Source: Pyropia yezoensis (taxonomy: Eukaryota; Rhodophyta; Bangiophyceae; Bangiales; Bangiaceae). Taken from it: DNA of 64,000 bases. The notes below the pieces were generated by a model, which saw only the letters and a program-made list of their open reading frames with translations, was not told the DNA's origin and did no database searches. The stretch spans positions 38,416,894-38,480,893 of the forward strand of contig CM020618.1 of assembly GCA_009829735.1 (NCBI GenBank). Direction: 5' to 3'. Positions 14,175 through 23,801 of the stretch are shown piece by piece. The translations under genes were made by a program, and so were the position numbers. Positions within the stretch are counted from its first letter, which is position 1. Each line of letters begins with the position of its first letter.

Positions 14175-15116
14175 TCAACCGCGTGTGGGGTCTGTGAGCT
14201 CAGCGCACGACCTCATCATCGGCTCCAAGCCCCACCGACCACCTCCGTCAGCCCCAACTTGGAACAAAACCAACCAAGAACCCCCCCCAAACCTCTCCAC
14301 CCCCTCTCGCCCCCACCGCCCAGCGGCCACAAACAACGTACCAATCTGCGCCTCGACCGCCTCGCTCACCGCTGGGATCTGGTCTGGGACCTCCCCCCGC
14401 GCGTTGCTCACGACCGCGTACCCCACAGACACTACGACGGCGTAAAAGATGGTTGACGAGCCCGCCTCGAGCAACCACCCCGGCACGCCCGCGGCGGCGA
14501 CGGCCCCCCCCAGGAGCTGCGGGAGGATTAACACCACGTCCAGCAGAAGCGCCTGCTGCGTGTTGAACCGCACAAAGCGGGAAAACCCCGTGTTGCGCAC
14601 GACCAGCAGGTAGAGCGCAAAAAATATGCCAAAAGCAAAGAACGGGATGCCCCGGTAGGCGCGGAACAGGGGGGCGATGGCGGGCAGCACGACCGCCGCC
14701 ACCGTTGGCGCGCGCTCAAAGACAAACCGCCCAAAGACGAGGCCATCAAGGAGGGGGAGGAGGTAGGGGGCCGACGCACCAATGCGCTCCAGGACAGGGA
14801 CGGGCTCCCCGCCGCCGCCACCCCGGTCGCCCCCGCCGCGGATCATGGTGGGGGGGGTGGCGCCGCGGCGCGCGCGCCGCGGCGCCGTCGATGACCACCG
14901 CCAGGTGGCGACAGGGACGGAAGAGCGGCCAACAAAGGAGCCAGGGGTAACCGAGGAAGGGGAAGCACCGGTAGCCCGCTGGGGCGCCAGCGCTGCCACA
15001 CGGGGGGGGGGGGGCGCCCGGCTCGACGACGACCTGCCATGCCGGAGGCTGGCCGCGACGGGCGCCCCGCCTGGCGCAGCGACAAAAGCACCTGCCTGCC
15101 CAACGAATGACCCCAT
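14175..15116 (-). CDS. TIC20-like plastid protein import component
   Basis: A 313-aa frame starts at the ATG at 15116. The first ~100 residues are Ser/Ala/Arg/Pro-rich with early Phe residues (GSFVGQAGAFVAAP), as expected of a red-lineage plastid transit peptide. The body has four hydrophobic segments: YLLPLLDGLVFGRFVF, VAAVVLPAIAPLFRAY, IPFFAFGIFFALYLLVV and a last pair around LILPQLLGGAVAAA and IFYAVVVSVGYAVVS. Between them lies the conserved RFVRFNTQQALLLDVVLIL block typical of the Tic20 family. TIC20 is a channel component of the inner-envelope translocon. The last ~45 residues (GRWGREGVERFGGG onward) are not typical and may be lineage specific. The gene has no visible intron and lies tail-on to a gene-poor stretch. 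Confidence 0.8.
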   Translation of the reverse strand: MGSFVGQAGAFVAAPGGAPVAASLRHGRSSSSRAPPPPRVAALAPQRATGASPSSVTPGSFVGRSSVPVATWRWSSTAPRRARRGATPPTMIRGGGDRGGGGGEPVPVLERIGASAPYLLPLLDGLVFGRFVFERAPTVAAVVLPAIAPLFRAYRGIPFFAFGIFFALYLLVVRNTGFSRFVRFNTQQALLLDVVLILPQLLGGAVAAAGVPGWLLEAGSSTIFYAVVVSVGYAVVSNARGEVPDQIPAVSEAVEAQIGTLFVAAGRWGREGVERFGGGSWLVLFQVGADGGGRWGLEPMMRSCAELTDPTRG

Positions 15117-18051: not shown

Positions 18052-19458
18052 ATGTCTAAGACCAATGGAGCCTCCCCGCCCCTCACGGCACCCCCCACCG
18101 ATGCGGTCCTCGAGCAGTACGACACGGCCGAGTCGGCCCAGTTTTACTCCGTAATCATGGGCGACGACACCGCTCACGTGCACTACGGGGTCTTTTCTTC
18201 ACCTTCCGACACAACACGACAGGCGGCAGCCGCCACAACCACCGCCCTCCGCACGCTCGCCGAGGATGGGGGCGTCGTCTTCCGCCGGGGGGTGCGGGTG
18301 CTCGACTTGGGCGCCGGCAATGGCGGCGCCGCGCACGCGCTCGCCGCCGCCACCGGCTGCAGCGTCACATGCCTCAACCTGTGTGGGCGGCAAAATGCGG
18401 CCAACGAGGCGGCCGCCGAGGCGGCGGGCCTGTCTTCGCTGATCACGGTCGTGACGGGCTCCTTTGAGGCACTCCCCGCCGAGTGGACCGCCGCGTTTGA
18501 CGTGGTGTGGTCGCAGGACGCGATCGTCCACTCGTCGTCCAAGGGGCGGGTGTGGGCCGAGGCTGCGCGCGTGCTGGTACCCGGCGGCCACGTGGTGCTG
18601 AGTGACATCATGGCGGCACCCGCGGCAGGCGGCGAGGCGCTCGCGGCATTCAAGGAGCGGCTGCACGTGGAGGAGCTGCTGACGCTCGACGGCTACGAGG
18701 CGGGCCTTCGGGGCGCGGGCGTGGCCACTCTTCGCACCCGTGACCTGTCGGGCCACCTGGTGCCCAACTACCGGCGGATGCTGAGGCGGATTGGCAGCGA
18801 GCGCGCACGCCTGACCCTCTGCTCGGACGCCTACCTGGACAACTACGCCGCGCTGCTGCGCGACAACATTAAGGTGTTGTGTGAGGGGGAAGCGCAGGCG
18901 TGGTGCGCGCTCGTCGCCCGAAAGGGTGGCTTCGTCGCCACCACCGGCGACGCCGCGGCGGTGGTCGCCCCGGCCAATGGGGTGCCCAACGGCAGCGGCG
19001 TCACTGCCGCGCCGTGGGCACCATCCCCCACCCCAGTGAAGCGCTGGGTGTCGTCCAAGCTGCACGGCGTCAAGGTCACCCGCAAGAGCGTGGCGTACCA
19101 CGGGAGCGTGGGCGTGTCCCGGACGCTCCTTGCCGCTGCGGGCATCACCGAATACGAGGCGGTGGACGTGGTGAACCTGTCCAACGGCGCCCGATGGACA
19201 ACCTACGCGCTGGGGATGGACGAGGAGGGGGCGTTCTCGCTCAACGGCGGGGGCGCCCGCCTGGGCGAAGTCGGCGACGCGTGCGTCGTCATGAGCTACG
19301 CCGACGCCCCGACGTACGTGCCCGCGCGGGTGGCCATCCTGGGGGGGGGCAACGTGGTCGTTGACGAGTTCGCGTACGAACACCAAAAGGACGCTGGCAA
19401 GAGCCCCCTCCCCACGGAGGCGCCCAAGGGAGCGGACGGGGGCACTACCGCGATGTGA
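18052..19458 (+). CDS. N-methyltransferase / aspartate 1-decarboxylase (PanD) fusion
   Basis: One uninterrupted 468-aa frame from a CACC-ATG. Residues ~10-300 are a class I SAM methyltransferase of the sarcosine/dimethylglycine type: RVLDLGAGNGGAAHALA (SAM loop, 83-91), VTCLNLCGRQNAANEA, DVVWSQDAIVHSS, ARVLVPGGHVVLSDIM, GHLVPNYRRML. A Pro/Ala/Thr linker (~300-330) leads to a complete PanD domain (~331-435). Aligned to E. coli PanD, Lys336, Tyr349, Gly351-Ser352, Arg381, Thr384 and Tyr385 match Lys9, Tyr22, Gly24-Ser25, Arg54, Thr57 and Tyr58 with one constant offset, and LNGGGA matches the VNGAAA loop. PanD self-cleaves at Gly-Ser to make its pyruvoyl cofactor and converts aspartate to beta-alanine. 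The inferred role is beta-alanine N-methylation toward beta-alanine betaine. No targeting peptide is evident, so it is probably cytosolic. Self-cleavage would leave the methyltransferase on the beta chain. Domain calls are strong; the methyl acceptor is inference. Confidence 0.9.
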   Translation: MSKTNGASPPLTAPPTDAVLEQYDTAESAQFYSVIMGDDTAHVHYGVFSSPSDTTRQAAAATTTALRTLAEDGGVVFRRGVRVLDLGAGNGGAAHALAAATGCSVTCLNLCGRQNAANEAAAEAAGLSSLITVVTGSFEALPAEWTAAFDVVWSQDAIVHSSSKGRVWAEAARVLVPGGHVVLSDIMAAPAAGGEALAAFKERLHVEELLTLDGYEAGLRGAGVATLRTRDLSGHLVPNYRRMLRRIGSERARLTLCSDAYLDNYAALLRDNIKVLCEGEAQAWCALVARKGGFVATTGDAAAVVAPANGVPNGSGVTAAPWAPSPTPVKRWVSSKLHGVKVTRKSVAYHGSVGVSRTLLAAAGITEYEAVDVVNLSNGARWTTYALGMDEEGAFSLNGGGARLGEVGDACVVMSYADAPTYVPARVAILGGGNVVVDEFAYEHQKDAGKSPLPTEAPKGADGGTTAM

Positions 19459-22373
19459 GCTCTGACCAGGTTGGAGAACATGGCGACGCGACAGAGCGCA
19501 ACAACGGCCTTCCTTCGACCTTGTGCATCTGTGGCGGGTGACGATAGAATCCTCTTACTTTTTGAGCACGCCCGAGCTGAGATACATCAAGTATCTATGA
19601 TAGATAGCCCGCTTTGAACACTGTGCGTTCACAAGTCGCACGGTCCCATATCTGACCGTCAGCTGACAGTGATCAGAAGCGTTTAGAGTCGGCAAAGCAC
19701 AACTCCCACATAGGGTGCGCAGCCAAGTTCGCTTACCGAACCCCGCCCCTCTCGAATCGACGGTGGATGAGGTGGGCGCCAACTCGAGTGATCAGGGGAA
19801 GGTTGGGGAGCGGACGGCGCACCCATCATGGGTGCGCAGGGATGATCCTGGCAGTCTTGGATAGCCATGCGTATCCAGCTGGGCAAGGAGAGGCCCCGGG
19901 CTTGGAAGCTGCCATGTGGGCAACGGGGGGGGTCGCCCACCCTCCCACGGCGCGGTACGTTAGTGCATCCGTTTACGGATCGGTGACAAAAAAAACAACG
20001 ATCACAGCAATGCCTAAATTAAGTGGGGGACGGCCAGCCCCCTATCTGCCCACCCCCTGGTCTCCTTCGCGGCCCGCGTGGGTCTTCTCCGTCAGTTGTG
20101 CTGGCCACTGTACGCTGGGAAGAGTTTCCGTGGTTGTGACCGCATCATTCTGCTAAAAGACGATGGTAGCAAGCCGTCGATCAAGCAGAGGGTCTGGGAG
20201 CGGTGCGGAGGGTGAGCGTTGCTTCACTAGGAGCGGCTCGGACGGGGACTCCACATTCTGTTTCGATCGATCGTTCCCCGTGTAACCGGACCTATTATTA
20301 TTATTTTGTCAGCCGGCACGCACGGCCGCCAGGCCGTTGGCGAGCGGCTGACGCGGGGACGCGCGGCAGGACGGGGGGGGAGGGGCCGAACGGTCACGCC
20401 CGACGGCGCCTGCGCGGCGGTGCGTGGGCGGTGCCACTGTGGCGGACGTGGCGGAGCGGACGCGGATGTGGCGCCCGAACGGGCGTCACGCCAATGGTGC
20501 TGACTGGCGGGCGGCCCGGGGGCGGCCACCCGACACGAGGGGGGGCGCGCGCCCGCGCGCGCCCACGCGGGCAAGCCCCTCCCGACTACAATTCGACGAC
20601 ACCCCCCCCCTCCCCCCCGTGCGTCCCGTGGGCCCTGGCCCGCAAGGACGGGCGGGCCCACGACCACACGACTGGCCCATCGTGGGCTGGGCGGCGGGAC
20701 GTGCACCACCCTGCCCTGCCGGCGGTGCCGGCGCCAGCCGGTGCGGCCGACTACTTGGGGGCGCGGGGCGACGGCCAGCAGCCGGCCCGACAGGCCGGCA
20801 GCGTCCTTTGTCTTCTCGCGGCCCACCCTCCTCCCTGGGCGCCGCGCCGTCGTCAACGGCGGGCACCCACTGTACCTGTTTACCTTGTCCGACCCCGCGG
20901 GGCGCCACTCTTCGGGCGTGCGCGGGGCCGCTGTGCTTGTTTGTACCTGTCATGCATACCAACCACGCCGCGGGGGCACCGGACCACCCGCGGCACTGTA
21001 CCTGTTTCACGGGCGGCGGCCGCTCCCCCTCACCGGGGCGGCCGCCGCATGATCTACCTGCAGCATGCCGCGCCGAGGCGGTATGCGCCCATTGTCTTCT
21101 TTGCGGCCTGGGCGCGGGGCGGACGGCGGCGGTCCCTCGGGGAAGGGGGGGCCAGCCGGCGTTCCACCACGCGCCTGCGGCGTGACCGAGGTCACGCCCA
21201 AGCCCGCAGCCATGTTCACTCGCATCTTTGACTCCCGCAGGGCCGGCGTAGCCGGTCAGCCAGCTGCTTTGGGGGAGCTGGCCTAGCCTGCAAGAGGGAA
21301 GTAAAAACTGTCACGTTTCTTGGCGCACTCTCCCCTCGGCTCCCCTCGCTGGTTACCGTCGTTAACAGTCTTTCCCACGCCCCACGGCGCGGCCGCGGAT
21401 CAAATCGGGAGCGTTGCCTGATTGCGGCAGATCCGTCAGTGATTTTTTGCCAGCGAGGAGACGGATGACGTATTTTTATGTCCACGCCGTCCACCGTGGG
21501 GTGGGGGCAAGCACCAGGCCTGCAGTGAGGTGGCCCCCGCGGGCGTACAGTACATTTGTATATAGGGATGTAGCAATGACATTGTCGGCCTTCAAGGGGG
21601 GGTGGGCCAGCGCGGAGCTCTCTTTTTCCAGTACCCCGCCCGCCCAGCATCATGCGACCATGGTACCAGATCTCGAGCGAGGTGGCGGGCGCCCCCACGC
21701 CAACAGCTGGATGCTCGGATGTGCTGGCATCCGTGGGCCGTCCCCTCCCCACCCCCACCTCCCTTCCCACCCCTAGCCACCCACGTGGCACATCCACCGC
21801 CTCCTCCATTTTGTTGCCTCTGTACTCGTGTACCTACTGTTTGTACAGCGGGGTAGCACCCGCACAGCAGAGTGGGAAAGGCACCCGCCCCTGACGCGAC
21901 AGAAGGGGTGAGCGGGGAACGAGCATACGGGCGGGGCGGGGGGGGGCGGGGGCCCAACTCCCCACGACGAGCTCAGGCGGGTTGAGGGGGGGGCGGCAGG
22001 GCAAGGCGCCCTCGGCAGGAGCGCACCAGCGCGGGGGTGCCCGGCCGCCAAGCACTGGCCAGTCCACACAGCGGCGGCCGCCCCGCGGATAAGAGGGGCA
22101 GCTCCCTCGCGGGCGCCGCCAGCTACTCGGTGCGTCACGGGCAGCCGCCCAAGGCGCGGGGGCCTGCAAACAGACCAAGGTCGCGTGTGCACGTCGCGGG
22201 CAGGCATCCCCCCCTCTTGAGCGCCACCCGCCCCACCCCTTGACGGCCGAGGGGTCGACACCCCGGCTTCCCCCCCGCCCTCTGTCGTTCCCTCCACTCT
22301 TTTGGCTCCGACACTCGTCGACTGTCCCCTGGGGGCGCCGGGTGCGCGGCGCCCTCGCAACCCGACGCGCGCC
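19459..22373. other. Long intergenic region
   Basis: No family signature in any frame; 300-codon frames on both strands at 20.2-22.3 kb are Pro/Arg/Gly-rich noise. Contains a TTATTA microsatellite at 20291-20303, two copies of CACTGTACCTGTTT (about 20868 and 20994) and a GTACAGTACATTTGTA motif at about 21545. Confidence 0.5.
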
Positions 22374-23206
22374 ATGGTCCACCACTCCCTCGGACGGCTG
22401 CAGTCGCCGCGCAAGACCTGTGCGGCCGGGGCGGCGACGGCGGCTGCCGTTGCCGCCGCGGTCGTGACCATCATGGCCGTCGCGGCCGCGGCAACGGCGG
22501 TGGCGGTGGCAGGGGCGCGCCGCGCGGCGGTGACGGCGTCGCCGCCGCGGTCCGCCGCCGTCGCACAGCAGCCGGCCACCCTCCCCACGCCGGCGGTGCG
22601 TGCGCTGGACGTGGCGGCCATTGGCAACATCCTCTTTGAGCTGCGGTGGGAGCGACAGGACTTCCGCTGCCCGCGGACCTTCTTCCTGGGCAACGCCACA
22701 CCCGTGGCAGAAGTGCCGTCCCCCAGCGTGCGACTCTTCCCGGGGGAGGGAATCCGTCACAACGGTAGCTTGTGTGTCGGTGGGGGTCTTCTGGTGGTGA
22801 CCGTCGAAGCGCTTCGGAATGACCAAACAATGACCCGCCTTGACGAATCCACCATGGCGACACGTCTGCGGAGCGACCGGTGGACAAGCGAAACCCTAAC
22901 GTGGGCGTCGCTGGTCGGCCTGGATATGGACTCTTGGACGTGCTATGGCCGGTCAATGTGGAACGACTTTGCCGTTGCGTACTTTGGCGATGCCTCTTAC
23001 CTTTTCCATGAAGATGAAGGAGGGTGGAACACCCGGCTCCCTCCAGGGCACCGGCATATGATGGTGATCACACCCGAGGACGGCCTTTGGTGCCTGTTGA
23101 GCGCGCCCCCCATCCGGGCCACCGTTATCGAGACAGGGAGCCCCGACGAGGGCGACGGGAGCACGGGCAGCGCAGCACCGGATGCAGCCGGTCGCGACGG
23201 GGACGA

Positions 23207-23239
<33 letters not shown>

Positions 23240-23801
23240 CGGCGAGCCGGCGCCTGCGGCGGGTGAGGACGCCAGCGGCCTGTCCACGGGCGCCACTGTT
23301 GGCGTCAGCGTCGCTGCCACTGTGGCCACTGTCGTTGCCGCCGTCGTGGTCGTTACGCTGGTGGTACGGCGGGCGCGCCGCGGCGGGGACGCTGGCGGGG
23401 GTGGCGACACCGCCGCCGCGGCGGGGGGGAAGGAGGGTGACGGCGCGCCTCCCCCGCCGCCGTCGCCGCCGCTCCCACCCGCGCAAGACCCCCGGGCGGT
23501 GGGGTACCCCGCCGGCGTTGGCGCCCCGCGGGGCTTCTGGGCAGCGCCGCCCGCGGCGGCGGCGGCGGCGGCGGGGCCCCCTCCGAAAGGCGCGGCCGCG
23601 TTTTTACCGATGGGGGGGAACGGGTGTGTGAAGGGAAGAGGGGGCGGGTGGACCACTGGGGGGGGGGGGGGGGGGGGGGGTGGTCCCGCCCGTGACGGGG
23701 GTGGTGGAAGCGAAGGCAGCGGCGGTGGCGGCGGCAGGCTCTCGTTGGACGTCTCGCCAACGCCGCCGCCCATGCCTGTCTCCCTCCTCACCCAATCGTA
23801 G
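22374..23801 (+). CDS. Two-TM membrane protein of unknown function
   Basis: The ATG at 22374 (context GCC-ATG-G) gives 475 aa. Residues ~18-45 are a long Ala/Val-rich hydrophobic segment after Arg/Lys, a signal anchor or signal peptide. Residues ~75-250 form a probable lumenal or extracellular domain with Trp/Phe-rich stretches, two Asn-glycosylation sequons (GNAT, HNGS) and Cys at FRCPRTFF, SLCVGG, WTCYGR and LWCLLS. An acidic/Gly linker precedes a second TM helix (~306-330, VGVSVAATVATVVAAVVVVTLVV followed by RRARRGG as stop-transfer). The ~140-residue cytoplasmic tail is Pro/Gly low complexity. The layout suits a type I receptor-like or cell-surface protein. I do not recognise the lumenal domain. 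Confidence 0.6.

Follow-up and report, generated by a model that had tools for sequence, protein, structure and literature searches.

A conserved methyltransferase–PanD fusion in Pyropia yezoensis, a candidate one-protein route to N-methylated beta-alanine

Described systems and the Pyropia gene

Aspartate 1-decarboxylase (PanD) makes beta-alanine from aspartate, while the class of methyltransferases to which sarcosine/dimethylglycine methyltransferase (SDMT) belongs includes enzymes that methylate small amino acids. We analysed a gene that encodes an SDMT-like domain followed by a PanD domain, in a 64,000-nucleotide stretch of the genome of the red alga Pyropia yezoensis (assembly GCA_009829735.1, contig CM020618.1, positions 38,416,894 to 38,480,893 of the forward strand; this whole stretch is called the window below). 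The gene is a real, conserved bifunctional enzyme, which had been glimpsed before in print without explanation. On balance, we lean towards the view that it converts aspartate into beta-alanine and then into N-methylated beta-alanine, towards beta-alanine betaine. The beta-alanine methyltransferase of the plant Limonium is a different kind of protein.

The closest described protein is the two-domain "DsyG-like" OSX77567.1 of Porphyra umbilicalis, also a Bangiales alga, in which a methyltransferase is likewise followed by a C-terminal pfam02261 domain, and which is probably the same as our P0004 (BU14_0143s0003). In the available text of PMC11306096, it was assayed for the activities of the dimethylsulfoniopropionate (DMSP) pathway, none of which was detected, and no other function is proposed. 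The fusion architecture is therefore already in print, in passing, so that the first-pass annotation of this DNA, which knew of no described fusion of this kind, has to be corrected. DsyGD, from Gynuella sunshinyii and some cyanobacteria, is also an osmolyte-making fusion of an N-terminal S-adenosylmethionine (SAM) methyltransferase and a C-terminal decarboxylase, but its C-terminal domain is PF04115 and its product is DMSP, according to the same text, whereas that of the window protein is PF02261. The 13 Pfam families that match the window protein at E ≤ 1 do not include PF04115.

Three other systems resemble one half of the protein. Ordinary PanD (PF02261, TIGR00223) has the same catalytic and cleavage residues and a significant match, but the window PanD is fused to a methyltransferase, lies across a long and fully supported branch, and scores under the TIGR00223 cut-off. 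The putative sarcosine/dimethylglycine methyltransferase 2o57 of Galdieria sulphuraria is the best match of the methyltransferase half, by sequence and by fold, among the solved structures listed, but it has a single domain, is about 28–33% identical, and forms a long outgroup branch in the methyltransferase tree. Last, gp87 of phage Jace and its relatives in IMG/VR are on the same side of the PanD tree and carry the same GGGARLG signature, but these phage PanD proteins stand alone, with no methyltransferase relative in the flanks examined. What is new here is that the fusion is the sole complete PanD found in the genome, that it has paralogues whose PanD is decayed or lost, and that its PanD groups on the phage and metagenome side.

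A conserved two-domain frame

The features of the gene, all on the + strand, are as follows (window coordinates).

18052–19458, +: complete methyltransferase–PanD fusion frame, 468 residues and stop, read without introns, its start region aligned with homologues
18115–18861, +: SDMT-like SAM-dependent methyltransferase domain, residues 22–270
18937–19038, +: Ala/Pro/Gly-rich linker, residues 296–329, whose length varies among aligned homologues (predicted local distance difference test, pLDDT, < 50 at residues 294–328)
19039–19386, +: PanD domain of the "RWTTY/GGGARLG" type, residues 330–445, from PF02261, PanD matches in the PDB and two trees
19057–19059, +: Lys336, equivalent by alignment to Lys9 of E. 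coli PanD
19102–19107, +: Gly351-Ser352, the predicted self-cleavage bond and pyruvoyl-forming serine, by alignment with Gly24-Ser25 of E. coli
19192–19206, +: Arg381 to Tyr385, including Arg381, Thr384 and Tyr385 (Arg54, Thr57 and Tyr58 of E. coli, by alignment)

Translation of this frame gives 468 residues and a single stop, which is terminal. The Pfam scan of the protein finds Methyltransf_11 at residues 84–183 (54.7 bits, cut-off 21.2) and Asp_decarbox (PF02261) at residues 332–419 (91.1 bits, cut-off 25); the earlier statement that a methyltransferase precedes PanD in a single frame thus holds, both domains being above cut-off with no stop between them. The length of the frame is no proof of coding, since long frames come easily in DNA of about 67% GC: for instance, an antisense frame of 395 residues overlaps the fusion gene. 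It is homology that is decisive, and on that basis the frame is confirmed. A false join, where two genes or transcripts would be read as one, would draw some credit from the same ease of opening long frames; but the same join, with linkers in frame, is seen in five more distinct proteins, taken from other data (P0003, P0004, P0005, P0014 and P0015, of which P0004 is from Porphyra umbilicalis), and this explanation is hardly credible. These conserved fusions rule out a chance open reading frame or a misjoin.

The fusion had been predicted to exist in another Bangiales alga, and the P. umbilicalis protein bears this out; proteins from other assemblies show the same join. The protein P0002 is 99% identical to that of the window, while P0005, P0014 and P0015 (the latter lacking its start and having a divergent final stretch) are only 53%, 48% and 43% identical, which suggests that the fusion may predate the named Bangiales. 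When proteins were searched with the PanD half (467 candidates of 257–819 residues), a search that reaches only relatives with short exact words in common, six were found at E ≤ 1e-3 and all six also had the methyltransferase.

A structure model of the window protein, built from seven sequences, has a mean pLDDT of 67.7; besides the linker, residues 348–350 and 397–401, within the PanD active site, are below 50. A fold search with this model shows that the methyltransferase half has the same fold as 2o57. The 50 structures listed by the fold searches contain no match to the PanD half, and are filled by methyltransferase matches.

The PanD half and its catalytic residues

The roles of individual residues in catalysis and self-processing are taken from E. 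coli PanD. Alignment to the latter shows that Lys336, Tyr349, Gly351-Ser352, Arg381, Thr384 and Tyr385 had been correctly placed in the first-pass annotation: the window protein has Lys, Tyr, Gly-Ser, Arg, Thr and Tyr at E. coli positions 9, 22, 24–25, 54, 57 and 58, and it also keeps the Asn that matches position 72. These eight catalytic or processing positions are conserved in all seven of the aligned fusions with an intact PanD, referred to as live below (six of them distinct: the window protein, P0002, P0003, P0004 from Porphyra umbilicalis, P0005, P0014 and P0015); position 11 is a His in six of the seven. A decarboxylase function of the PanD half is likely.

The substrate might be a sulfur analogue, since N-methyltaurines occur in red algae: cysteine sulfinate or cysteate would be decarboxylated to hypotaurine or taurine, and then methylated to N-methyltaurines or taurine betaine. 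The accumulation of taurine in some red algae, described in the available text of PMC8123152, is in line with such a route, but the active-site Arg, Thr, Tyr and Asn are kept in seven of seven live fusions and point to aspartate, which makes the sulfur route quite improbable.

Paralogues with a decayed or lost PanD

The genome searched comprises 107.5 Mb in 11 contigs, and the searches were six-frame and exon by exon, so that genes split by introns can be missed. The window protein has four matches in it: the fusion gene itself, a second fusion on contig C2 (C2:21039553-21040791; L002, L004), which is 56% identical over residues 8–437, a methyltransferase-only gene on contig C1 (C1:19284824-19285750), which is 57% identical over residues 5–313, and a weak match, 35% identical over residues 41–201. 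P0008 and the C2 paralogue differ at 2 of 427 residues, P0011 and the C1 paralogue at 6 of 330.

The PanD of the C2 paralogue appears to be dead, like that of two homologous fusions, P0006 and P0007 (Pyropia vietnamensis MMPV_002797). The equivalents of Lys9, Tyr22, Ser25 and Asn72 are lost in these three proteins (P0006, P0007 and P0008); all three keep that of Thr57, and two of the three keep that of Arg54, and likewise of Tyr58. The C2 paralogue scores 23.2 bits against PF02261 in the protein scan, under the cut-off of 25, and 25.5 in the genome search, over it.

In a methyltransferase tree of 16 rows (including the long outgroup row 2o57 and the long, cut-off row P0015), P0006–P0008 and the methyltransferase-only proteins P0009–P0011 form one group (bootstrap 93, Shimodaira–Hasegawa-like approximate likelihood ratio test 100), and the methyltransferase-only proteins nest inside it (96/92 and 91/91). 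A clade of live and dead fusions that leaves out the methyltransferase-only proteins is rejected (approximately unbiased (AU) test, p 0.0004). The simple reading of this tree is that a fused ancestor was duplicated, and that the PanD of one copy would have decayed and, in some lineages, disappeared. In the dead-PanD paralogue, the idea of a pseudoenzyme domain that has been retained could be put to the test.

Beta-alanine supply in the genome

PF02261 has two matches in the genome: the fusion gene and C2:21040528-21040740, the latter without the PanD lysine, tyrosine, cleavage serine and asparagine. Apart from the fusion, no catalytically complete PanD was found in the 107.5 Mb. The pyridoxal phosphate-dependent decarboxylase family PF00282 gave no candidate, in a search that was positive in 8 of 14 control genomes. 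The search for sources of beta-alanine was confined to these two decarboxylase families. PanC has one match in the genome, and PanB has four, at two places.

These results are also what is expected if the two halves have two loosely related jobs, PanD making beta-alanine for pantothenate and coenzyme A and the methyltransferase acting on glycine, sarcosine or dimethylglycine, with the fusion merely fixing their co-expression: PanB and PanC are present, no other complete PanD or PF00282 protein was found, and the structure closest to the methyltransferase, among those listed, is that of a putative sarcosine/dimethylglycine enzyme. Yet little beta-alanine is needed for pantothenate, and it would be unusual for a decarboxylase to be joined to an enzyme with no use for its product. 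Moreover, none of the four matches of NCBIfam NF041675 (sarcosine/dimethylglycine methyltransferase) in the genome reaches the cut-off of the model, which therefore does not support a role in glycine betaine synthesis. We regard the two-job explanation as somewhat unlikely.

The proposed pathway

Returning to the synthesis of N-methylated beta-alanine, which we favor, the proenzyme would cleave itself at Gly351-Ser352 into a chain of 351 residues, made of the methyltransferase and the PanD beta-chain, and an alpha-chain whose N-terminus is a pyruvoyl group; the two chains would remain associated in an oligomer of the PanD type. The PanD half would decarboxylate L-aspartate to beta-alanine, and the tethered methyltransferase would move methyl groups from SAM onto the amine of the latter, to give beta-alanine betaine, either alone or with the two paralogues. 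The pyruvoyl cofactor of PanD acts by forming a Schiff base with primary amines, so that decarboxylation should come first. Self-processing, aspartate as the substrate, beta-alanine as the acceptor and the number of methylations are all inferred, and beta-alanine is our best single hypothesis for the methyl acceptor.

Several observations support this pathway. Both domains match their families, the eight positions are kept in every live fusion, and the join is conserved down to 43% identity. The genome searches found neither another complete PanD nor a match to PF00282. Among the solved structures listed, the methyltransferase half is nearest to 2o57. Beta-alanine betaine is reported, in the available text of PMC12113544, to rise in Pyropia haitanensis as dehydration increases, and the P. 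umbilicalis protein had no DMSP activity in that of PMC11306096.

The latter result bears directly on the idea that the fusion is a DsyGD-like DMSP enzyme, which would S-methylate methylthiohydroxybutyrate and then decarboxylate the product. The order of the domains is that of DsyGD, and the authors of the DsyGD study held the P. umbilicalis protein to be a good candidate; but recombinant OSX77567.1 had no detectable S-methyltransferase or decarboxylase activity (both points from the available text of PMC11306096), so that the DMSP reading is contradicted by published assays on this protein. In addition, it is established that PanD chemistry requires an amino group, which the hydroxy acid methylthiohydroxybutyrate does not have. 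We consider a DMSP enzyme very improbable.

A number of points weigh against the beta-alanine betaine pathway. Both halves fall short of the equivalog cut-offs of their NCBIfam models: the panD model TIGR00223 gives 66.3 bits (E 2.3e-18) for a cut-off of 106, and NF041675 gives 122.6 bits (E 2.7e-35), far under its cut-off of 550. The presence of PanB and PanC means that beta-alanine has a second outlet, pantothenate. Since the paralogues keep a methyltransferase whose PanD is dead or missing, the methyltransferase may serve apart from its own PanD. Its specificity for nitrogen is not certain either, because the available text of PMC11306096 places the P. umbilicalis methyltransferase nearer to the diatom sulfur methyltransferase TpMMT than to DsyG; the assays described there are for DMSP-pathway activities, and that text contains no assay with aspartate or beta-alanine. 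The rise of beta-alanine betaine, as given in the part of PMC12113544 available, is a metabolomics result in another species, P. haitanensis.

If the proposal is true, an intertidal seaweed now has an identified gene for making beta-alanine betaine, which probably protects against desiccation; this would be a solution independent of the Limonium enzyme, and compact enough for trial in other organisms.

Relatives of the PanD half in phages and metagenomes

A scan of the genome_contigs collection with the algal PanD alignment (A2) gave six confirmed loci, the nearest of which (53% identity) is on a contig of a Hyphomicrobium metagenome-assembled genome. Three of the four neighboring frames tested on this contig match phage families, one of them ParB-like, so the locus may be part of a prophage. 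The nearest relative among annotated phages is gp87 of phage Jace (Gordonia/Rhodococcus), at 48.7%. In the viral_contigs collection, scans with A2 and with a single sequence confirmed no locus, and the scan with alignment A4, to which the phage and Hyphomicrobium sequences had been added, confirmed 41; since search patterns and alignments differed between collections, the phage and cellular counts are not comparable. The GGGARLG signature is present in 18 of the 48 loci L016–L063 (16 of the 41 IMG/VR loci, Jace and Hyphomicrobium) and absent from 30. These 18 loci amount to eight distinct sequences; the IMG/VR locus L033 matches Jace in length and its PanD is identical. The phage literature matches listed include no title on phage PanD.

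Database relatives of PanD were the best 120 of 930, of which 119 are listed as P0019–P0137. A first tree of 75 rows, from which sequences at least 88% alike and the three dead-PanD rows were left out, used 35 of these 119 proteins (34, and P0077 as a bacterial row), most of them picked for their nearness to the algae. In this tree, a branch of length 0.72 with support 100/100 parts ordinary PanD (22 rows and 4 viral-contig rows) from an algal-type group (6 algal, 7 phage or viral-contig, 34 database and 2 bacterial rows). A second tree of 77 rows, for which 12 of the earlier 22 ordinary rows were kept and 20 others added (15 genomes, 4 plasmids and 1 record labelled phage), along with 26 database rows, retains this split at 100/100. 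Both trees draw the algal PanD inside the phage-bearing group, at two places. They are based on about 125 columns, with unsettled bootstraps and a sampling tilted to the algal side, and the hosts of most database rows are not given.

These trees support the kinship of algal PanD with the phage, viral-contig and metagenome group rather than with ordinary PanD. An alternative placement of the algae, at the edge of the group beside ordinary PanD, is worse by 10.2 log units but is not rejected by the AU test (p 0.356), so that algal PanD may belong inside or beside the phage-bearing group, and any transfer may have run in either direction. A single algal clade is not rejected either (AU p 0.513), and the two separate entries that both trees draw were set aside on that account. 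We also set aside a test in which kinship between the algae and ordinary PanD was rejected (58 log units, AU p 0.043), as the constraint also displaced the four viral-contig rows amid ordinary PanD. The earlier suggestion that PanD was acquired by transfer is plausible, though the trees go no further than kinship with the phage-bearing group.

No methyltransferase relative was found at E ≤ 1e-3 near PanD in any of the 48 loci L016–L063, all of which have PanD (flanks of up to 4 kb, 3 kb for L022, shorter at contig ends). The two domains were therefore probably joined in the algal line; the idea of an operon precursor, bacterial or phage, was set aside for the same reason. The fullest scenario, in which red algae acquired a PanD of phage type and fused it to an SDMT-like methyltransferase to make a one-protein betaine pathway, with the dead-PanD copy behaving like a prozyme that may assemble with the live enzyme and tune it, is improbable as a whole, and the odds of a phage origin are lowered by the edge placement that the trees accept. 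If the proposed pathway is right, the fusion might turn out to be an osmolyte enzyme of a eukaryote, assembled in part from a type of gene that phages share.

Some features of the PanD loci deserve mention in their own right. Four of the eight distinct GGGARLG-type sequences from phage, viral-contig or Hyphomicrobium loci lie in a conserved cassette, which consists of a ParB-like gene, an ABC-ATPase/GNAT fusion (phrog_11143 where scanned), PanD and a CoA-transferase-III-like gene (L022 1344–4109, which is phage Jace, L023 2281–5070, L024 2344–5016, and L032 267–2967, where the ParB match is weak, 1e-8). Our guess is that this cassette may be a phage pathway that depends on beta-alanine, such as DNA modification. 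In a second phage setting, two TauD-like dioxygenases and a radical-SAM-like gene adjoin PanD (L045 4001–7592 and L050 4001–8352); in L025 (3977–5923), the radical-SAM-like gene alone was matched near PanD. The bacterial PanD sequences L102 (from G128) and L103 (from G100), on a branch of length 1.95 with support 100/100, may represent a third type of PanD, and that of G100 is within an open frame of 615 residues.

Neighboring frames in the window

Downstream of the fusion gene, positions 22302–23801 (+) hold an open frame of 499 residues that contains low-complexity regions rich in Gly, Pro and Ala, as well as a stretch that looks hydrophobic by eye, and that has no Pfam match at E ≤ 0.001. 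On the other side, positions 14175–15116 (−) encode a Tic20-like plastid import protein (PF16166, 67.1 bits).
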